A stretch of 56,119 nt of DNA, taken from contig JACQZJ010000132.1 in NCBI GenBank assembly GCA_016213895.1, positions 1 through 56,119 on the forward strand. Direction: 5' to 3'. The notes under the pieces were generated by a model, which did no database searches, was not told the origin of the DNA, and was given only the letters and a program-made list of their open reading frames with translations. Shown here piece by piece: positions 33,714 to 49,602 of the stretch; the first letter of the stretch is position 1; the number at the start of each line of letters is the position of its first letter. Source of the stretch: Planctomycetota bacterium (GTDB taxonomy: Bacteria > Planctomycetota > B15-G4 > JADJEK01). The translations under genes were made by a program, and so were the position numbers.

Positions 33714-34907
33714 TCAGCCGGAGATGAGGGCGAAGGTCTCCTCGGCGATCGCGATCTCCTCGTCCGTGGGGATCACCAGGATGCGCGCCCGCGACGTGGC
33801 CGTGGAGATGTCGGCCTCGACCCCGCGCGCCGCGGCGTTCTTGGCGGCGTCGAGCGCGTAGCCCATGTCCGCGAGTCCGGAGAGGCTCTTGGCGCGCACG
33901 GTCGCGGAGTTCTCCCCCACTCCCGCGGTGAAGACCAGGGCGTCGGCGCGCCCCAGGACGGCCGTCATCGCGCCGATGTACTTCTTCACGCGGTAGCAGA
34001 ACACCTCGAGGGCCAGCGCCGCCCGCTCGTCCCCGTCCCGCGCGCCCGCCTCGATCTCGCGCATGTCGTTCGTCTTGCCCGACAGGCCGAGCAGCCCGCT
34101 CTGCTTGTTGAGCATGCGGTTGACGTCGTCCGCGCTCATGGCGCGGTCCTTCATCAGGTAGAGGATGATCGCCGGGTCGAAGTCGCCAGGCCGCGTGCCC
34201 ATGACCAGCCCCTCGAGCGGCGTGAAGCCCATGCTGGTGTCCACCGACCTGCCGCCTTGCACCGCGGCCATGCTGCAGCCGTTGCCCAGGTGGCAGGTGA
34301 TGACGTTGACCTCCTCGGACCGCCGGCCGAGCAGGCGCGCGGCGCGCCGCGACACGTAGGCGTGGGAGGTGCCGTGGAAGCCGTAGCGGCGGATGCGGTC
34401 CTCGCGGTACAGCTCGTAAGGAAGCGCGTAGAGGTAGGCGCGCGGCTCCATGCCCTGGTGGAAGGCCGTGTCGAACACCCCGACCTGCGGCACGCCGGGC
34501 AGGAGCCGGCGCGCCACCTCCAGGCCGAGCAGGTTCGGGGGGTTGTGCAGGGGGGCGAGCGGGATGTTCGCCCTGACCGCGGCCACGACCGCGTCGTCCA
34601 CCAGGACCGAGCCGGAGAACTCCTCGCCGCCGTGCACCAACCGGTGCCCCACGCCGTCGATCTCCTCCTTCCGCTGCAGCACCCCGCCCGCGCCCGTCAG
34701 GAGCGCGAGGATCTTCTCCAGCGCGGCGGAGTGGTCAGGAAACGCCTGCTCCACGATCGCCTCGCGGCCGCCGGCGTGGTGCGCGAGGCGCCCGTGCGGT
34801 TCGCCGATCCTCTCGCACAGGCCGGAGGCGAGGACGCGCCGCTCCGGCATCTCGCAGCACTTGTACTTGATGGAGGAACTGCCCGAGTTGAGCACGAGGA
34901 TCTTCAC
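33714..34907 (-). CDS. ackA: Acetate kinase
   Basis: This enzyme makes ATP and acetate from acetyl phosphate. It starts KILVLNSGSSSIKYK, the first ASKHA phosphate loop, and has GHRLVHGG, DTAFHQ, RRYGFHGTSHAYV (catalytic-site His/Arg), HLGNGCSMAA, MGTRPGDFDP and FTAGVGEN. The GTG at 34907 is preferred because AAGGAG lies 7 bases upstream and the family usually begins with this strand. An upstream ATG at 34931 would make a 4-base overlap with pta and add 8 residues. With pta it forms the substrate-level phosphorylation route from acetyl-CoA. Confidence 0.95.
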   Translation of the reverse strand: MKILVLNSGSSSIKYKCCEMPERRVLASGLCERIGEPHGRLAHHAGGREAIVEQAFPDHSAALEKILALLTGAGGVLQRKEEIDGVGHRLVHGGEEFSGSVLVDDAVVAAVRANIPLAPLHNPPNLLGLEVARRLLPGVPQVGVFDTAFHQGMEPRAYLYALPYELYREDRIRRYGFHGTSHAYVSRRAARLLGRRSEEVNVITCHLGNGCSMAAVQGGRSVDTSMGFTPLEGLVMGTRPGDFDPAIILYLMKDRAMSADDVNRMLNKQSGLLGLSGKTNDMREIEAGARDGDERAALALEVFCYRVKKYIGAMTAVLGRADALVFTAGVGENSATVRAKSLSGLADMGYALDAAKNAAARGVEADISTATSRARILVIPTDEEIAIAEETFALISG

Positions 34908-34927
34908 GACCGTCTCCTTGTGGCTGC

Positions 34928-37033
34928 TCATTCGCCGGCGCTCTGAGCCTGGATGGCGGTGATCGCCACCGTGTTGATGATGTCCGGCACGGTGCAGCCG
35001 CGGCTCAGGTCGTTGACCGGCTTCTTCAGGCCCTGCAGCACCGGCCCCACGGCGATGGCGTGCGCCGAGCGCTGCACCGCCTTGTAGGTGTTGTTGCCGG
35101 TGTTGAGGTCGGGGAAGATGAAGACCGTGGCGTGGCCGGCCACCTTGCTGCCCGGCAGCTTGGTCTTCGCCACGCCGATGTCGATGGCGGCGTCGTACTG
35201 CAGCGGCCCCTCGATGGCGAGGTCGGGGCGCAGCTTCTGGGCGAGGCGCGTGGCCTCGGCCACTTTCTCGACGTCGCTGCCCGTGCCCGACTTGCCGGTC
35301 GAGTAGGAGAGCATGGCCACCGCCGGCTCGATGCCGAAGGCGCGGGCGGTGTCGGCCGAGGACACGGCGATCTCCGCCAGCTCCTGGGCCGTGGGATTGG
35401 GGTTCACCGCGCAGTCGCCGTAGACCAGCACGCGGTCATCAAGGCACATGAAGAACACGCTCGAGACCAGCGAGATCCCGGGCCTGGTCTTGATGAACTC
35501 GAAGGCCGGCCTGAGCGTCTCGCGCGTGGTCGTGATCGACCCGGAGACCATGCCGTCGGCGTGGCCCTTGTAGACCATCATCGTCCCGTAGAAGACCGGA
35601 TCGGACATGGTGTCGCGCGCGAAGTCCTTGGTGATCTGCTTGTGTTTGCGCAGCTCGAAGTAGGTCTCCACGTAGTCCTCGAAGTCCGGCTGCTCCACCG
35701 GATTGATGATGCGCGCGTCGCCGAGCTGCAGCTTCAGCTCGTCGGCGCGGGAGCGGATCCGCTCCTCTTCTCCCAGCAGGATCACGTCCACCACGTCGCG
35801 GCGCTCGAGCGACTCCACGGCGCGCAGGATGCGCTCCTCCAGCGCCTCGGGCAGGACGATGCGCTTCTTGTCTTGGGCGGCCATGTGGATGACCTTGTGC
35901 AGGAAGAGCTTGGGCGTGAGGGCCTGCGGCGCCTCGACCGAGATCAGCGCCTTCATGCGCCCGGCGTCGACGTTGGCCGCGAACAGCGCGAGCGCGGTGT
36001 CGATCTTGCGGTGGTTCGCCGGACGGATCACGGCGTTGATCTCGTTCAACGCCATCGCCGCTTCGAAGGTGTTCTCCTGCACCGAGATGATCGGCACGCG
36101 CACCGACCGCAGCCCCTTGATGAGCCGGTCGATGGGCGGCGTGGGCAGGAAGCCGCCGGTAAGCACGATGCCGGCGATGTTCGGCATGGTCGTCGAGATC
36201 TGGGCCGCCATCAGGCCGGCGATGATGTCCTGGCGATCGCCCGGCGTGATCACCAGCGCTCCCGCGGGGATGCGCTCCAGGCAGTTGTCCAGCTTCATCG
36301 CGGCCACGACGAAGCCCGAGGCCAGGTTGTCCAGGTACTTCTCGCCGTAGACGACCGTGCCCCCGAGCTCGGTGACGACCTCGGCCGCCGTGGGACAGGC
36401 GAGCAGCTTCTCCTCGGGAATGACCCCCACCAGGTCGATTCCCTCGCGGGACATCCTCTCCTGCAGGGCGGCGCGGATCTCGCGCAGCCGGTCGGGATCT
36501 ACCATGTTGACCATGGCCGCCTTCAGCTCGCAGCCGCGCAGCTCGAACTGCTCCTTGCTCATGACCGCCGAGGAGACGATCTCGTCGACGCTGCGGTCCT
36601 TGCCCTTGAAGATCATCAGCACCGGCGCGCCGAGGTTCCTGGCGATGATCGCGTTGGTGTCGAACTCGAACCACGAGGTCACTCCCTCGTAGTTCGTGCC
36701 CTCGATGAAGACGAAGTCGCACTGCTCCTCGTAGGCCTTGTAGCGCTCGATGATCGTCTCGATCAGGTCGTCGAAGCGGCCGCGCGCGACCATCTCCTCG
36801 GCCGCCTTGGCCGACACGCCGTACATGGATTCGGGAGGGTCCTCGAGTCGGAAGTGGCTCCGGATAAGGTCGATGTTCGCGTCGAGGGACGCCCCCCTTT
36901 CATGCATGCGCGCGATCGGCCGGAAGAAGCCGACGCGCTGGATCGTGCCCTCGAGGAACTCCATCAGCCCCAGGGAGATGGCGCTCTTGCCGCTCCGGGT
37001 CTCGTTGATCGTGACGTACAGGTTCCTGGTCAT
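34928..37033 (-). CDS. pta: Phosphate acetyltransferase, long form with BioD-like and DRTGG domains
   Basis: The 701-residue enzyme converts acetyl-CoA and phosphate to acetyl phosphate. Its N-terminal part (about 1-210) is a BioD-like P-loop region with INETRSGKSAISLGL. A DRTGG domain follows (about 215-335). The catalytic PTA_PTB domain starts near 370, with MVSGSITTTRETLRP and MLSYSTGKSGTGSDVEK as its signatures. The long form is the type regulated by metabolites in E. coli. The ATG at 37033 has GGAG 8 bases upstream. It precedes ackA in the same operon. Confidence 0.95.
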   Translation of the reverse strand: MTRNLYVTINETRSGKSAISLGLMEFLEGTIQRVGFFRPIARMHERGASLDANIDLIRSHFRLEDPPESMYGVSAKAAEEMVARGRFDDLIETIIERYKAYEEQCDFVFIEGTNYEGVTSWFEFDTNAIIARNLGAPVLMIFKGKDRSVDEIVSSAVMSKEQFELRGCELKAAMVNMVDPDRLREIRAALQERMSREGIDLVGVIPEEKLLACPTAAEVVTELGGTVVYGEKYLDNLASGFVVAAMKLDNCLERIPAGALVITPGDRQDIIAGLMAAQISTTMPNIAGIVLTGGFLPTPPIDRLIKGLRSVRVPIISVQENTFEAAMALNEINAVIRPANHRKIDTALALFAANVDAGRMKALISVEAPQALTPKLFLHKVIHMAAQDKKRIVLPEALEERILRAVESLERRDVVDVILLGEEERIRSRADELKLQLGDARIINPVEQPDFEDYVETYFELRKHKQITKDFARDTMSDPVFYGTMMVYKGHADGMVSGSITTTRETLRPAFEFIKTRPGISLVSSVFFMCLDDRVLVYGDCAVNPNPTAQELAEIAVSSADTARAFGIEPAVAMLSYSTGKSGTGSDVEKVAEATRLAQKLRPDLAIEGPLQYDAAIDIGVAKTKLPGSKVAGHATVFIFPDLNTGNNTYKAVQRSAHAIAVGPVLQGLKKPVNDLSRGCTVPDIINTVAITAIQAQSAGE

Positions 37034-37277
37034 TGATCCCACTCCACATGGCTGGCGCCGGAGGCAAACAGACGAGTCTACCGGGCGCGCTCGGGCGACC
37101 GCCACGGACGCGCGCGGACTCAAAGACCCATATGCAATTTGCGGGCCGAGCGTGCTTCTCCGCCCCTCCGCGGCACGCCGCGGGGTGGTTCTCCGGCCTC
37201 CGAGGCAGCGAGAGAGAAAGGGCGAATCGCGCTGATAGAGGAAGTCGATCAGGCGGCGCTCGGACGCGCCTGCCCTG

Positions 37278-38747
37278 CTACGGGAAGGGCTCGATCTCCT
37301 CCTTCACCTTCGCGGACGCGAAGGGCCCCACCTGGTAGGTGCACACGACGACGTATTTGGTCTGCGCTTGCGGGCCAGCCCATGTGGCCGAGCAGGTGAA
37401 GCCTCAGCCGTACTCGAAGGCGCCGCGCGCGGCGATCTTCCCGGCCGCGGACAGGATCACGTAGGCCGGCGCCTTGGGCAGGTGCGTCTTCACCGCGTCC
37501 ATCTCGATCTTGGTCGCGCTCCCCGACACGCGCCTCAGGTCGGTGACCACCTCCTGGGCGCTGCCGTCGACGCGGAACTCGACCGGCACGGACTCGGGCG
37601 TGCTGCCCGCGGACTCCTCGTAGGCGCGCCGCGGCACGCGCGCCGCTGGCGCGAAGGGCTCGCCGAAGACCACGGTCGTGGAGCTGCCCGCCGTTGCCGT
37701 GAAGAACGGCGTGCGCGGCGTGGCGGCCGCGGCCACGCTCCAGACGTCGCCCTCGGCGTCGGCACGCAGCAGCCGGTAGCCCGCGACCCGGTACGTCCCG
37801 GGCGGGACGACCGCGGCGCGGCTCGGCTGGAGCATGACCGCGTACGTCCCGCCGTCCTCGGAGGCCAGGAACAGACGCTCGCAGTCCTGCGGGAGGTCGA
37901 GCGCCGCGGTGGCGCCGGCGTACGGCTCGAGCACGAGCGTCTTCGCGGCCGCGTCGATCCTCAACTGGAACAGGCTCTTGCCGAGCGCAAGCACGTTCCC
38001 GAGTGAGCAGAAGTCGCTCGCCTCGACCGCGCCCGCGGTTGTCAGGTAGAGGAAGTCGCCCGTGGCAGAGATGACCTGGACGGGCTCCTCCTCGGCCACC
38101 GCGCAGCGGGCCACGTCGTCGAAGCGCCCGTTGACGTTCGCGTCGGCGAGCAGCAGGCGGCAGACGCCGCCGCCGAACGCCACATCGCCCGCGTAGCAGC
38201 AGTTCGTGGTGACGTGCAAGGATAGGTCCGCGAGGTCGAGCGGGTCGCTCAGCTCGCCCCCCTCGAGCAGCGCGCTCGAGGAGAGTCCAACGCGCAGGCT
38301 GTAGTCCGCGCGCCCGGAGCCAGCACGCAGCGTCAGGTCGAGCGGCGGCGGCTCGAAGAAGCCCGGCAGGGCTTCGGGATCGGCGCTCTTCAGCGCCGGG
38401 TCATTCGTCAGGTCGCCGTCACCGCCGGCGTCGCAGTAGAGGACGCTGAAGAAGGGATCGCCGGCCTGCGCGCGGTCGAAGACGAGCAGGCGCTGTTCCC
38501 CAGCCAGCTCAAGGAGCGCGAACAGGGGCTGCTTGCTGGTGAGAGGCGGCAGCTTGAAGTCTCCGCGCGGCACACTGGTCGCGAGGTCCTCGACGAAGAG
38601 GGTGGAGCGCGGCAGGAACGCCTCGTCCTCCTGCTCGCCCGCCGGGTAGCGCACGTACTCCAGGGACACTTCCTCGGCGGCGGCCGGCGCAACGAGCGCG
38701 CCCGCCAGGAGGCCGGCAAGCGAGACCCGTCTCCACGCTCCTGTCAT
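37278..38747 (-). CDS. Secreted selenoprotein of an undescribed family, paralog of 48148-49602
   Basis: Read through the UGA at 37406-37404 this is a 489-residue exported protein with Sec at residue 448. It has a signal peptide (LAGLLAGALVAPAAA) and the same domain as the gene at 48148. Shared features are an EVSLEY start of the mature part, two acidic Ca-loop-like motifs (GGDGDLTNDPAL and DANVNGRFDDVARC), and a C-terminal GAFEYG-U-GFTCSATWAGP. The frame then continues for 41 codons to TAG at 37280-37278, with YVVVCTYQVGPF matching the paralog. A hairpin follows the UGA at the standard distance. The ATG at 38747 has an AGGAG site 5 bases upstream. Function is unknown; the Sec with Cys four residues later suggests redox chemistry or metal binding outside the membrane. 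Confidence 0.88.
37373..37389 (-). promoter_or_regulatory. Predicted SECIS of the 37278-38747 selenoprotein
   Basis: On the minus strand GGCCAC (37389-37384), loop ATGGG and CTGGCC (37378-37373) form a 17-nt hairpin of five Watson-Crick pairs closed by a C-C mismatch at the loop. It starts 14 nt after the UGA, as in the other selenoprotein genes here. The coding constraint on the conserved tail may explain the imperfect last pair. Confidence 0.72.
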
Positions 38748-39337: not shown

Positions 39338-39432
39338 GGAGGTGAGCGGGGCCCGGTGGCTCCCGCGGCCTTCAAAGCCGTCGTATCGTCGCTTAGACGC
39401 TAGGTGGGTTCGACTCCCATTCACCTCCGCCA
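39338..39432 (+). tRNA. selC: tRNA-Sec (anticodon TCA)
   Basis: The acceptor stem has 8 pairs, GGAGGTGA (39338-39345) with TCACCTCC (39421-39428), then discriminator G and encoded CCA. The anticodon loop CTTCAAA (39370-39376) carries TCA at 39372-39374, which reads UGA. The D arm, a long variable arm (CGTC...GACG), and a 5-bp T arm around TTCGACT complete the 8+5 acceptor/T geometry of bacterial tRNA-Sec. It lies 16 bases before selA on the same strand. It proves that UGA can be decoded as selenocysteine in this genome. Confidence 0.97.
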
Positions 39433-39447
39433 CCTTCTCATGCACTC

Positions 39448-40863
39448 ATGACACGAGATTCCTCTCCTCAAGACGGCGGCGACGACACGCGGCGCGGGCT
39501 GATCCCGGTCTACGCCGTGCTGGAGGAGCCCCGCATCCTCGAGCTGATCGCCGAGTTCTCGCGCCCGCTGGTGGTGGACGCCATCAAGGCCGCCCTCGAC
39601 GAGTTCCGCCGCGCCTTCCGTCCCGGGGCCGCGCTGCCGGCCATGGACGAGGTCGTGGAGCGCGTGCGCCACGTCGTCATCGATGAGGAGAAGGACCGCC
39701 TGCGGCCGGTGGTGAACGCCACGGGCCTCATCCTGCACACCGGGCTCGGCCGCGCCGTGCTGCCGCCGCGCGCCGCGGCCGCCCTCGCCTCGCTCGACCG
39801 CTGCTGCAGCATGCAGATCGACATCGAGACCGGGAAGCGCGGCAAGCGCAGCTACATGACCGAGCGCCTGCTCACGCGCTTGACCGGCGCCGAGGCGGCG
39901 ATGATCACCAACAACAACGCCGCCGCCACGCTCCTCATCCTCTCCGCGCTCTGCACCGGCAAGGAGGTCATCGTCTCGCACGGGCAGCTCATCGAGATCG
40001 GCGGCTCGTTCCGCCTGCCGGACTGCATCCGCCAGAGCGGCGCCATCGCCGTGCCGGTCGGCACCACGAACCGCACGCACCTGCGCGACTACGAAGAGGC
40101 GCTCTGCGAGCGGACGGGCGCCATCCTGCGCGCCAACCCCAGCAACTACCGCGTGGTCGGGTTCGCCAAGGAAGTGTCCATCGCCGAGCTGGTCGGGCTG
40201 AAGAAGAAGCGGCAGGTGATCGTCATCGACGACGTCGGCTGCGGCGCCCTGGTCGACACCGAACGCTACGGCCTGCCGAAAGAGCTGACCGTCCAGGAGA
40301 GCATCGCCGCGGGTGCGGACGTCGTCTGCTTCAGCGGCGACAAGCTGATCGGCGGGCCGCAGGCCGGCATCGTCGTCGGCCGCGCCGAGCTGATCGCGCG
40401 CATCAAGAAGCACCCCTTCGCGCGCATGATGCGCGTGTGCAAGCTCACCGACCTCGCACTCGAGCAGACGCTGCGGCTCTTCCTCGACGAGGAGACTCTC
40501 CTCGAGAACCACCCGACCCTGCGCATGCTGGCGGCCGACCCGGCCGCGCTGCGCAGGAAGGCGCAGCGCTTGAAGAAGCGCATCGACGCGGACCGGCTGC
40601 CCCTCCAACTACGCGTCAAGGAGGACGAGAGCGCCGCCGGCGGCGGCTCCATGCCCGCCACGCCGCTCAAGACCTACGTGCTGGCGGTGCAGAGCGCGGT
40701 GCACTCGTCCGACCGCCTGAGCCAGCTCCTGCGCCGGAACGAACCGCCCGTCATCACGCGCATCAGCGAGGCCGAGGTGATCATCGACATGCGCACGCTC
40801 CTCGACGGCGAGGAGAAGCTGGTGCATGAGGCCCTGCGGCGCGTAGCGCGCGCGGAGTCGTGA
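39448..40863 (+). CDS. selA: L-seryl-tRNA(Sec) selenium transferase
   Basis: SelA (471 residues) converts Ser-tRNA-Sec to Sec-tRNA-Sec using selenophosphate. The N-terminal domain carries VNATGLILHTGLGRA near residue 90, which is the family signature. The PLP lysine is in CFSGDKLIGGPQAG near 300. MITNNNAAATLLIL and VIVIDDVGCGAL belong to the fold-type I aminotransferase core. It lies directly after the tRNA-Sec gene and 43 bases before selB. SelD, needed to supply selenophosphate, is not in the window. Confidence 0.96.
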   Translation: MTRDSSPQDGGDDTRRGLIPVYAVLEEPRILELIAEFSRPLVVDAIKAALDEFRRAFRPGAALPAMDEVVERVRHVVIDEEKDRLRPVVNATGLILHTGLGRAVLPPRAAAALASLDRCCSMQIDIETGKRGKRSYMTERLLTRLTGAEAAMITNNNAAATLLILSALCTGKEVIVSHGQLIEIGGSFRLPDCIRQSGAIAVPVGTTNRTHLRDYEEALCERTGAILRANPSNYRVVGFAKEVSIAELVGLKKKRQVIVIDDVGCGALVDTERYGLPKELTVQESIAAGADVVCFSGDKLIGGPQAGIVVGRAELIARIKKHPFARMMRVCKLTDLALEQTLRLFLDEETLLENHPTLRMLAADPAALRRKAQRLKKRIDADRLPLQLRVKEDESAAGGGSMPATPLKTYVLAVQSAVHSSDRLSQLLRRNEPPVITRISEAEVIIDMRTLLDGEEKLVHEALRRVARAES

Positions 40864-40906: not shown

Positions 40907-42898
40907 ATGAAGCACCCGCCCCCTGGGTTTCTGCGCCAGAAGATGGACCCCGAGGTCCTGCTGATGGTTTGCACGGCGGGGCACGTTGACCACGGCAAGA
41001 CCAGCCTGGTCAAGACCCTGACCGGCTGCTCCATGGACCGCCTCAAGGAGGAGCAGGAGCGCAAGCTGACCATCGAGCTGGGCTTCGCCCCTTGCGTGCT
41101 GGGGAGCGGCGACGTGTGCGTGGGCATCGTCGACGTCCCGGGCCACGAGAAGTTCGTCAAGAACATGGTCGCGGGGGTGTCCGGAATCGACATGACCATC
41201 CTCGTGGTGGCGGCCGACGACGGCGTCATGCCCCAGACCGTGGAGCACTTCCAGATCCTGGAGCTGCTGGGCGTGCGCCACGGGATGGTGGCCCTGACCA
41301 AGATCGACCGCGTCTCGCGCGAGCGCGTGGCGGAAGTGAACGGCGAGATCCGCGAGTTCCTCGCCGGCTCCTTCATGGAGAAGGCCACGATCTGCCCGGT
41401 CTCGTCCGAGACCTGGGAGGGCTTCCCGGAGTTCTACGACGCCCTGGTGCAGGAGGTCAAAGGACTCTCGCGGCGGCGCTCGCTCGGCGTGTTCCGCATG
41501 CCGGTCCTGAACTCGTTCACGCGCCAGGGATTCGGCTCCGTGGTCACCGGCATCCCGGTGGACGGGACGATCGAGGTCGGCCAGGCGCTGGAGCTGGTCC
41601 CAGGCGGGCAGAAGGGCAAGCTGCGCAGCCTGCAGCGCTTCCTCAGGGACGCGACGGCCGGCGGCTTCGGCCAGTGCCTCGCGCTCAACATCCCCGAGTT
41701 CGGCAAGACTCCGCCGGAGCGCGGCCAGGTCATCTGCGCGCCCGGCTGCCTCAGGGCCTGGCAGTCCCTGCACCTGCGGCTCAAGGTGGTCGCGGGCATC
41801 GACAGGCCGCTGAAGAACGCCGAGCACGTCAAGTTCCACACCGGCACGAGCGAGGAGTACGGCCGGCTCTACCTGCTCGAGGAGAAGATGCTCGGCGAGG
41901 GCCAGACCGGCCTGGCGAACATCGTGCTCGCCGCGCCGCTCGCGGTCGCCGTGCACGACAAGTTCATCATCCGGCGGCCCGCGCCCGCGGTCACGGTGGC
42001 GGGCGGCGAGGTCATCGGCATGTCGCCGTCCGCGGTCAAGGCCTCTCGGCGGCAGGCGGTGGCGCGGCTGCGCACCTACGTCGAGTTCTTCCAGGACGCG
42101 AGCCTGGCCGGCGCCGAGCGCGTGGAGCGCGAGATCGAGTACTTCCTGTGCAGCGAAGGAGCGACCGGCGCCAGCCTGCGCGAGATCGCGCGCGGCACGC
42201 TGCTCGCCGACGAGGCCGTGCGCGAGACCGTCACGCGCCTGGAGGAAGCGGGCCGGGTGCTGCGGCTCGCCCCGGACAGCATCATCCACCGCTCCAGCTA
42301 CGACGCGAGCCTCGCCGAGGCGGCGGCGCGCGTGCAGCGGCACGTGGCCGAGGGCAAGGTCCTGAGCCTGGCGCTCGCGGACCTGCGCCGCGGGCTCTGC
42401 TGGCCGGCCGCGCTCTGGAGCCGCGTCGAGGAGGACCTCGCGAAGCAGGGGCTGGTCTCGCGCCGCGGGGACCGCGTGGTGCTCGAGAGCGCGGCCGGCG
42501 GGCTGAACGACAAGGACCAGGACCTGGTGCAGAGGATCGTCGCGACCTTCGACGAGCACGGCTTCAAGTCGCCGCGGCCGGACGAGCTGCCCGACCTGCT
42601 GCGCGCGCCTGAGGAGCGCGTCGAGCGCCTGCTCGACTACCTCTGCGCCAAGAAGGAGCTGTTCCGCCTGGCGAAGAACGTGGTCCTGAGCCGCCGCTGG
42701 CTCAGGAAGGCGGAGGAGCTGGTGGTCCAGGTGGTCCAGGAGAAGGGCGTGCTCGATTCCGCCGACTTCAAGTACCATATCGACTCGACGCGCAAGTACG
42801 CGCTCGCCATCCTGGACTACCTGGACTCGCGCAACGTGACAGTGCGCAGAGGCAACGACAGACACCTGGCCGCTGACTACCGCAGGAACTTGACTTGA
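40907..42898 (+). CDS. selB: Selenocysteine-specific elongation factor SelB
   Basis: SelB (663 residues) brings Sec-tRNA-Sec to UGA codons that have a SECIS hairpin. The GTPase motifs are TAGHVDHGKTSL near residue 22, DVPGHEKF near 80 and TKID near 130. The C-terminal 230 residues contain winged-helix domains that bind the SECIS loop. The family usually begins just before the GTPase loop, so an internal ATG at 40964 is a possible alternative start. It forms a tight group with tRNA-Sec and selA. Confidence 0.95.
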   Translation: MKHPPPGFLRQKMDPEVLLMVCTAGHVDHGKTSLVKTLTGCSMDRLKEEQERKLTIELGFAPCVLGSGDVCVGIVDVPGHEKFVKNMVAGVSGIDMTILVVAADDGVMPQTVEHFQILELLGVRHGMVALTKIDRVSRERVAEVNGEIREFLAGSFMEKATICPVSSETWEGFPEFYDALVQEVKGLSRRRSLGVFRMPVLNSFTRQGFGSVVTGIPVDGTIEVGQALELVPGGQKGKLRSLQRFLRDATAGGFGQCLALNIPEFGKTPPERGQVICAPGCLRAWQSLHLRLKVVAGIDRPLKNAEHVKFHTGTSEEYGRLYLLEEKMLGEGQTGLANIVLAAPLAVAVHDKFIIRRPAPAVTVAGGEVIGMSPSAVKASRRQAVARLRTYVEFFQDASLAGAERVEREIEYFLCSEGATGASLREIARGTLLADEAVRETVTRLEEAGRVLRLAPDSIIHRSSYDASLAEAAARVQRHVAEGKVLSLALADLRRGLCWPAALWSRVEEDLAKQGLVSRRGDRVVLESAAGGLNDKDQDLVQRIVATFDEHGFKSPRPDELPDLLRAPEERVERLLDYLCAKKELFRLAKNVVLSRRWLRKAEELVVQVVQEKGVLDSADFKYHIDSTRKYALAILDYLDSRNVTVRRGNDRHLAADYRRNLT

Positions 42899-42941: not shown

Positions 42942-43784
42942 ATGATGATCCAGAAGACCAGGAGGTGGGTGCAGACCTTCTCCCTCCTCCTGCTGCACAG
43001 TTCCTGGAGTCCCGCCCTCCAGCTCAAGTGGTTCTGCGCGCCGGTCTTGAGCTGCCACTCCTGCGCGCTCGCCTGGTTCGCCTGCCCGATGGGCATCTTC
43101 GTGCACTACTCGGGCTGGCACGTCTTCCCCTATCTGACGCTCGGGCTCTTCCTGCTGCTGGCCGCGCTGCTCGGCCGCCTGCTGTGCGGCTGGGTTTGCC
43201 CCTTCGGCTTCCTCCAGGACCTCTTGCACAAGATCCCCACGCCCAAGCTCGCGTTGCCGCGCTGGACCTCGTACATCAAGTACCTGGTGCTTTTGCTCAC
43301 GATCTTCGCCCTGCCCTGGTTCTTCGGCGCCGAGACTCTCTGGTCCTTCTGCCGCGTCTGTCCCGCCTCCGCGCTCCAGGTCACGATCCCGAACCTGATC
43401 GGCGGCGGCGCGATCAGCCTCGCCACGGCGATCAAGCTGGGCGTGCTCGTCCTCGTGCTGCTCCTGGTCCTCTTCTTCGAGCGCGCCTTCTGCCGCGTCC
43501 TCTGCCCGCTCGGCGCCATGCTGGCGCCCTTCAATCACGTCAGCTTCTGGAGCGTCAGCCCGGCCAAGTTCGAGTGCCTCAAGTGCGAGAAGTGCAACAA
43601 GGTCTGTCCCATGGAAGGGAAGCCCTCCGAGCGCTTCCGCCAAGGCGTTCCCGCGAGCCGCGCACTCGAGTGCGTGGTTTGCCACGAGTGCCAGACCGTG
43701 TGCGTGCAGCGGGGCCCAAAGCCGCGCACGCCGCGCAAGAGACCTGAGCAACCGCCGGCCGCCGCGCCGCCGAAGACCCCGTAG
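42942..43784 (+). CDS. NapH/polyferredoxin-type membrane iron-sulfur protein
   Basis: The 280-residue protein has about four membrane segments (for example FPYLTLGLFLLLAALLG and KLGVLVLVLLLVLFF). CGWVCPFGFLQDLL and FCRVLCPLGAML are the CxxxCP motifs of the NapH/YccM/RdxA family. Ferredoxin-like clusters CLKCEKCNKVCP and CVVCHECQTVC follow in the C-terminal cytoplasmic part. Members pass electrons across the membrane to periplasmic enzymes. The gene follows selB by 43 bases and may be co-transcribed, but has no clear ribosome-binding site. A Pro-rich tail closes the protein. Confidence 0.85.
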   Translation: MMIQKTRRWVQTFSLLLLHSSWSPALQLKWFCAPVLSCHSCALAWFACPMGIFVHYSGWHVFPYLTLGLFLLLAALLGRLLCGWVCPFGFLQDLLHKIPTPKLALPRWTSYIKYLVLLLTIFALPWFFGAETLWSFCRVCPASALQVTIPNLIGGGAISLATAIKLGVLVLVLLLVLFFERAFCRVLCPLGAMLAPFNHVSFWSVSPAKFECLKCEKCNKVCPMEGKPSERFRQGVPASRALECVVCHECQTVCVQRGPKPRTPRKRPEQPPAAAPPKTP

Positions 43785-48147: not shown

Positions 48148-49602
48148 ATGACATTTGGATTTCCGGTTCGGTCTCTCGCGCTGCTCTTCCTTCTTTGCGG
48201 TCTCGCGCCTGCAGAGATCCTGGAGGTGCCGCTCGAGTACCGGCAGAACTGCGACGACAAGGACGCAACGCATCCCTGGGGGAGCGCCTACGCGCTGCCC
48301 TCGCCCGACTGTCCCGGCGGCGACTGGAAGCTGCCGGAGTTGACGGGCGCGCGGCCGCTCTACGCGACCCTGACCCTCGGCGAGACCGACTTCCTGGTCG
48401 TCCTCGACCGCGTCGCGGAGAAAGACGGTTTCTACAACCGCATCCGCTTCGACCGGAACGACAACGGCGACCTCACGGACGACCCGGTGCTCCTGGGCGA
48501 TCTAGCCCCCTTCGGAGACATCAAGCAGTACTACGTCTCGTTCGACGACGAGGTCTCGGTCGAGTACCGCCTCGGCGGCACCGTCCTGCCCTACCGGCTG
48601 GGCTTCAGCCTCCAGGGGCAGGACCAAGAGGAAGGCGCCGGAGACGACGCCCCGCGCTTCATCTACTTCGGCGTCGCCGCGGCCTGCCACTATGCGGCCT
48701 CGTTCACGCTGGACGGCGCGTCCTACCAAGTCATGCTCGGAGACGGCGACTGCAACGGCGCCTTCTCCAACACGGCGCGCATCGACGAGAACATGCACCT
48801 GTCCGCGGACCAGCCGATCTACGCCCAGGGCGATAGCCTGTACCTCACGGCCGAGAAGAAGTTCTCGCGCGGAGACGACTTCCTGCTGGGCGATCTCCTG
48901 GTCCTCGGCGAGAGCATCTTCACGGTCAAGGTGGACACGGCCGCGCGCACGCTCACGCTCGCGCCGGCCCAGGGCGACCTCGTGCCCCTCAAGCTCTCCC
49001 AGGCGCCGGAGCGCCTGCTCCTGCTCGAGCGGAGCTTCGCGCACTGCGTCATGATGCACCGGCCGGCCATCGCCAGGATCCCGGCCGGCGACTGGCGGCT
49101 GCTCAGCTACGCGCTGCTCCGCACTGGCAAGGAAGGCGACCTCTGGCGGCTCGAAGCCGCCGGCAGCGGCGCGACGCCCTTCGTGAGCGCGGCGCCCGGC
49201 GCCGAGGCCCTGCTCGAGTTCGGCGAACCCTACCTGCCCCTGGCGCAGGTTTCCGAATGGTCGCTGCAGAACATGCAGGAGAACGGCGCGACCGAGGCGT
49301 CGCTCGCATTCAACGTCCAGGGACGGGTGCAGGAGTTCCTGACCGACCTCCGGCGCCTCGCGGGCGACAAGAGCTCGATCGCTCTCTCGCGGAGCAGCAC
49401 GGACCGCCCGGCGGAGCCGACCTACACCATCGTCACGGCATCGGGAGAGAATGTCGCCGAGGGGACCTTCGAGTACGGGTGAGGCTTCAGCTGCTCGGCC
49501 GCATGGAGCGGCCCGAAGAAGGGCGTGGACTACGTCATCGTCTGCAAGTACGAGGTCGGCCCGTTCGAGACCAAGATCGAGAAGCGCTCGTTCCGCTATT
49601 GA
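48148..49602 (+). CDS. Secreted selenoprotein of an undescribed family, paralog of 37278-38747
   Basis: Read through the UGA at 49480-49482 this is a 484-residue exported protein with Sec at residue 445. The start has AGGAGG 7 bases upstream and a signal peptide (LALLFLLCGLAPA). The mature part has RFDRNDNGDLTDDPVL and DGDCNGAFSNTARI, both like Ca-binding loops, at positions equivalent to the paralog. It ends GTFEYG-U-GFSCSAAWSGP, followed by YVIVCKYEVGPF, then UGA at 49600. Of the first 28 residues after the Sec, 17 are identical to the paralog, including both cysteines and the Trp. A perfect SECIS-type hairpin follows the UGA. Read as a stop, the 39 conserved codons would be unexplained. 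Confidence 0.9.
49497..49513 (+). promoter_or_regulatory. Predicted SECIS of the 48148-49602 selenoprotein
   Basis: GGCCGC (49497-49502) pairs perfectly with GCGGCC (49508-49513) around the loop ATGGA. The stem begins 14 nt after the UGA, the same distance and the same 6+5+6 geometry as in the thioredoxin-fold selenoprotein gene at 18801. Confidence 0.85.

Follow-up and report, generated by a model that had tools for sequence, protein, structure and literature searches.

A gene beside the selenocysteine genes

Why does a long reading frame, a few hundred bases from the genes for selenocysteine (Sec) insertion, continue in frame past a UGA codon, and what kind of protein does it encode? The gene, here called member B, lies in the 56,119-nucleotide stretch of planctomycete DNA that was analysed (the window), and a preliminary description had taken it for one of two members of a new selenoprotein family. 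On translation, 37278-38747 of the minus strand is a single frame of 489 amino acids with one UGA (codon 448) and a TAG end, and the particulars described earlier, GAFEYG-U-GFTCSATWAGP and 41 further codons to the TAG, were all found. The 41-residue tail ends in EPFP, and GAGGAG, 5' of the ATG, is a ribosome-binding site. The features of the locus are:

37278..38747, minus strand: member B, gene for a very probable exported selenoprotein, 489 aa, ATG start, TAG stop (from translation and conservation in the sister species)
37404..37406, minus strand: in-frame UGA, almost certainly Sec448 of member B, in the same alignment column in members A and C
38673..38747, minus strand: likely signal peptide of member B, MTGAWRRVSLAGLLAGALVAPAAAE (read from the sequence only; helix 4-16 in the AlphaFold2 model)
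39338..39432, plus strand: tRNA-Sec, anticodon UCA (ARAGORN)
39448..40863, plus strand: selA, selenocysteine synthase (PF03841, 431 bits)
40907..42898, plus strand: selB, Sec-specific elongation factor (SelB beta-barrel and winged-helix domains, Pfam)

From the start of member B it is 591 bp to tRNA-Sec and 701 bp to selA, which bears out the distance of less than 1.2 kb claimed earlier. Genes for phosphate acetyltransferase (34931-37123) and acetate kinase (33717-34931) adjoin member B on the same strand, and a Fer4_5 4Fe-4S membrane protein (42942-43781) is encoded directly downstream of selB. The window's genome contains tRNA-Sec, SelA, SelB and SelD, the last in two copies, of which the second (L117; G000:C64:37114-38037) has a UGA at its catalytic site (SCAG-U-AAKLSP) and, judged by its sequence, is an internal example of a known selenoprotein.

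Paralogues and selection on the tail

Also found in the window was a paralogue on the opposite strand:

48148..49602, plus strand: member A, 484 aa, with UGA as stop
49480..49482, plus strand: in-frame UGA, almost certainly Sec445 of member A (from the sequence)

Members A and B are 35-36% identical across nearly their full length and have the UGA in the same column, as the preliminary description had held. A third paralogue, member C, which likewise has one UGA, is encoded elsewhere in this genome (contig C68). A sister species of the same genus retains all three paralogues with a UGA in each, its orthologue of member B (L005) being 81% identical. This persistence of the UGA in the three paralogues of both species, and in some 100 domains besides, agrees with the earlier statement that the UGA is not a sporadic nonsense mutation, and sequencing error was rejected as an explanation on the same ground.

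Two outcomes named beforehand as telling against the family, a dN/dS near 1 after the UGA and a disrupted tail frame in close relatives, were not seen. The frame is intact in the sister species, and in comparisons with it (Nei-Gojobori) dN/dS after the UGA was 0.11 for A, 0.39 for B and 0.12 for C, versus 0.38, 0.45 and 0.67 before it, the value for the tail of B being uncertain with 7 substitutions only (3 synonymous, 4 non-synonymous). These low values indicate that the tail is coding and more constrained than the rest of the protein. Member A terminates with UGA in both species, which indicates that UGA is also a normal stop in this code.

Conserved Cys residues had been described at +4 and +21 from the Sec. 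Both are present in A and B, but only Cys+4 is widespread, accompanying Sec in 73 of 107 domains and missing from 34, while Cys+21 is confined to the A/B subgroup. Because member C and most relatives lack Cys+21, a three-residue U/C/C site is, from sequence comparison, unlikely as a general feature of the family, in which Sec alone is near-universal.

Distribution of the family and residues at the Sec column

A profile search matched 114 of 392 genomes of the phylum. Nearly all strong matches have exactly one UGA, and those that are weaker and lack UGA align mostly over the N-terminal part or other incomplete segments. For a scan of the collection an alignment of 14 rows was too divergent, and one of four rows was used. 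Named genomes were scanned with the peptide pattern GG[TI]C[RQ]YSW, leaving the Sec column free; this yielded 30 loci, mostly from Planctomycetota (including Phycisphaerae and Brocadiia), with a few from Verrucomicrobiota and Lentisphaerae. Family loci span dozens of planctomycete genera as well as the latter two groups, many have two to four tandem copies, and the sequences come nearly all from metagenome-assembled genomes.

The residues at the UGA column of 111 domains were 107 U, 1 C, 2 R and 1 Y, a census that is not unbiased since 37 of the 107 U come from loci chosen for having UGA; the count was 24 U to 1 C in automatically fetched loci and 46 U to 1 R in the named scan. The search profile was trained with C at the Sec column and would, if anything, favour Cys forms. 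Searching with a strict DNA pattern in which the Sec codon was left free gave 3 sites only, all UGA, which is consistent if few. Cys homologues are usual, but not obligatory, for bacterial selenoproteins, and the near-absence of Cys substitutes at the main site (1 C vs 107 U) is very unusual. The lone Cys form (L040) is from a genome that is 99% complete and whose best SelB match is at the EF-Tu background level. The R, R and Y forms are Sec-lost paralogues beside intact Sec copies (L043 second, L086 first, L046 second).

With selB assigned per genome by best E-value, over the cut-off, 38 of the 43 genomes with a UGA form encode it, versus 234 of 392 overall (Fisher p 2.4e-5), and the five UGA-form genomes without it are all 64-83% complete. 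With selB in so many of the sampled genomes, a widespread family of this kind would suggest that planctomycetes are major, under-counted selenium users.

A hairpin after the UGA

Just downstream of the UGA codons, short hairpins were predicted:

37373..37389, minus strand: predicted SECIS-like hairpin of member B, GGCCA-CATGGGC-TGGCC (RNAfold, family-wide stem and covariation)
49497..49513, plus strand: predicted SECIS-like hairpin of member A, GGCCGC-ATGGA-GCGGCC, loop starting 20 nt after the UGA

The apical loop of the B hairpin begins 19 nt after the UGA and its stem is just 5 bp; hairpins are likewise short in some other members. In the sister-species orthologue (L009) the minimum free energy (MFE) fold is this same A hairpin; over 54 nt, member A itself has a different MFE fold. 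Across 102 distinct contexts, the best stem with its loop 13-38 nt after the UGA scored 7.40 versus 6.13 in synonymous shuffles (difference 1.28 +/- 0.12), with no difference in the next downstream window used as control (5.43 vs 5.41), and the loop started at 20 or 21 nt in 57 of the 102 contexts, versus about 12 expected. Covariation was examined in 48 representatives less than 60% identical, in a fixed register and with 1000 shuffles. Paired cells numbered 212 of 336, versus 157 in shuffles, and double changes 67 versus 35, values that 0 of the 1000 shuffles reached for either measure. Slid registers gave 109-151 paired cells, save register -2, where the hairpin is unchanged apart from a loop that begins one base earlier. 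Typical stems are GGTACTCG-TGG-CGAGTACC, GCGCTTCG-TTG-AAGCGCC and GTGCGTT-TGG-AACGCAC, and the peptides they encode differ.

Bacterial bSECIS elements are described as having a loop 16-37 nt after the UGA, a G in the first two loop positions, an upper stem of 4-16 bp and an MFE <= -7.5 (PMC13188914). These properties were found family-wide, with an early G in 98 of 118 loops; MFE was <= -7.5 kcal/mol in 102 of 102 windows, a value that is not discriminating as 97 of 102 controls share it. By folding-energy z-score the UGA windows did not stand out from their synonymous shuffles (mean -0.22, control -0.31; 102 contexts), and it is the position-specific stem and the covariation alone that discriminate, unlike total folding energy.

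Predicted structure and export

The AlphaFold2 model of a short form (L098, 217 aa; pLDDT 94) combines a single membrane helix with two beta domains, and a loop joining two strands of the second domain holds the Sec; the model of member B presents the same picture at lower confidence (pLDDT 75). The second domain of L098 resembles Ig, FN3 and macroglobulin MG domains (Z 7-8). This fold is very common, and the matches to it, the best of which has Z about 8, give no indication of function. The models predict an Ig-like beta-sandwich for the Sec domain, with Sec in a conserved G-U-G loop, and the proteins are predicted to be exported and often membrane-anchored, the shorter forms through one N-terminal helix. 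Sec would thus be placed on a beta-sandwich, versus the thioredoxin-like fold of most characterised selenoproteins. A thioredoxin fold with CxxU/UxxC was rejected for this family, as the L098 model is all-beta bar the membrane helix and the motif is GUGxxC. Foldseek with the full-length model returned no match at E <= 0.001, and no sequence relative was found in the PDB. The Sec domain also occurs fused to ankyrin repeats (L019), laminin-G/F5_F8-type modules (L024) and a DUF4190-like membrane region (L025).

How the UGA is read

Taken from the sequences, the UGA is almost certainly decoded as Sec: the tRNA-Sec, SelA and SelB encoded next door would read it, directed by the stem-loop just downstream. 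Also in favour of Sec are the Sec-type SelD of the window's genome, the SelB match at background level in the genome of the Cys form, and the alternation of UGA with Cys at a second site of the cytochrome-fused forms. Gene callers end the frame at the UGA, and the upstream ORF alone would encode 447 aa, so that a true stop would leave a product ending ...FEYG and downstream homology that is decaying or due to chance. This we judge very improbable, as the part after the UGA is the best conserved of the family (G-U-G..C and GPF motifs), is under purifying selection, remains in frame across 102 contexts and, in the model, makes up the rest of the beta-sandwich. That UGA is read as Trp or by a near-cognate tRNA has, in our estimate, even less to recommend it: member A uses UGA as its stop in both species, there is no Trp at the column in 111 domains, and the SECIS-like covariation, selB co-occurrence and neighbouring sel genes point to Sec.

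With the UGA read as Sec, members A and B are very probably exported selenoproteins of one large, undescribed family with Sec in an Ig-like domain. The new family proposed in the preliminary description is supported by UGA conservation throughout and by the searches of Pfam and NCBIfam (June 2026), which gave no match for any of the three members. Among the 119 prokaryotic selenoprotein families of a published catalogue (PMC13188914 Table 1), not all of which have a model in Pfam/NCBIfam, none is listed with such a motif and domain. The family is probably absent from the literature, although the supplementary list of PMC4807772, Haft & Tolstoy 2025 and a 2026 groundwater paper might mention it.

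Cytochrome fusions, gene neighbourhood and possible function

One branch (L026, L034, L037, L039, L054-L056, L059-L072, L074 and L076) is fused to a c-type cytochrome, its layout being CxxCH, a conserved T[AST][U/C] site about 25-30 residues on, and then the G-U-G domain. At the second site, close to the heme motif, roughly 14 members have UGA and roughly 9 Cys, so that many of the cytochrome-fused members would be double selenoproteins. The U or C at this site could, from its position in the sequence, be a distal heme ligand, and if that is true a Sec ligand there would be a natural selenolate-ligated heme. As read from their sequences, the fusions support a redox role.

Genes for Sec synthesis or insertion (selA, selB, selD or tRNA-Sec) were within about 4 kb at 20 of the 30 named loci (16 with selA, 13 with selB, 6 with selD), and a double-cubane-cluster protein was a neighbour at 16 and a SAM methyltransferase at 15, counts that are not independent because some of the loci are related. 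In the window's genome a double-cubane protein is present on another contig. A few loci have an ABC transporter resembling the SaoA/SaoP/SaoX models, below their cut-offs; the NF040772 double-cubane protein is the sole Sao-related neighbour over its cut-off.

From these neighbours, the cytochrome fusions and the predicted fold, we propose tentatively that the family, encoded in selenium-linked operons, performs redox or soft-metal(loid) chemistry with an extracytoplasmic selenolate, possibly in handling selenium or organometal species. After export, the exposed selenolate, often together with the Cys four residues on, would be an extracytoplasmic redox centre or a binding site for soft metal(loid)s.

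Two other roles, each of which we consider unlikely, would account for some of the same observations. A selenenylsulfide between Sec and Cys+4, inter- or intramolecular, could stabilise an Ig domain, like that of an adhesin, which would serve in structure or as a receptor and take no part in catalysis or metal binding, in keeping with the Ig/MG-like fold, the laminin-G-like and ankyrin fusions and Cys+4 in 73 of 107 domains; but the other 34 domains keep Sec without this Cys, the near-total lack of Cys substitution suggests that selenium chemistry is needed, and the cytochrome c fusions and the double-cubane, methyltransferase and ABC neighbours suggest chemistry. A role in selenium supply, on the other hand, in which the proteins capture or reduce selenium species at the surface or in the periplasm for the Sec pathway encoded next to them, would fit the 20 of 30 loci that adjoin selA, selB, selD or tRNA-Sec, and double-cubane/2-hydroxyglutaryl-CoA dehydratase-like proteins recur near sel genes elsewhere (PMC5322559, PMC10418091). 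That adjacency may have other causes, such as shared regulation, and no selenium transporter was recognised.

Relation to known selenoproteins

The SAO system (Sec-assisted organometallic; SaoB/SaoC/SaoX/SaoP) is similar in that its selenoproteins are tied to membrane transport and that some family loci have SaoA/SaoP/SaoX-like ABC genes and others the NF040772 double-cubane protein, but the family matches no Sao model and its motif is GUGxxC rather than the CU/UxP of SAO. Hypothetical protein DG (NF049953) has the motif GUxG, which also fits the family's GUGG; its model (cut-off 130 bits) was rejected, as it did not match A or B and had one weak genome match elsewhere, without UGA. The predicted Sec-domain fold is like those of alpha-2-macroglobulin MG1 and cytokine-receptor FN3 (Z 7-8), but such MG/Ig-like domains have no Sec, and no sequence relation to the family was found. 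GrdA, glycine reductase selenoprotein A, is reported to be the only selenoprotein known earlier to lack Cys homologues (PMC12013277), which is nearly the case in this family, but its motif is CxxU (PMC13188914 Table 1) and that of the family GUG.

Almost every selenoprotein known so far is the Sec counterpart of a Cys protein, a relation on which the main methods of detection rely (PMC13188914, PMC12013277), and this may explain why the family was missed; standard gene calling, moreover, cuts these proteins at the UGA. We think it fairly probable that these exported Ig-fold proteins form a nearly Sec-only superfamily of the PVC bacteria, phylum-scale in extent and unseen because of the reliance on Cys homologues; that its second Sec/Cys is a distal c-type heme ligand is much less likely. 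A family so widespread, and with hardly any Cys form, would reveal a gap in detection and would allow a test of what selenium does that sulfur cannot.

Distant branches of the family (L053, L052, L029, L041, L057 and L040) have UU (two consecutive UGA codons), UC, CU or CC at the site, which, by analogy, look like vicinal metal-binding or redox pairs.
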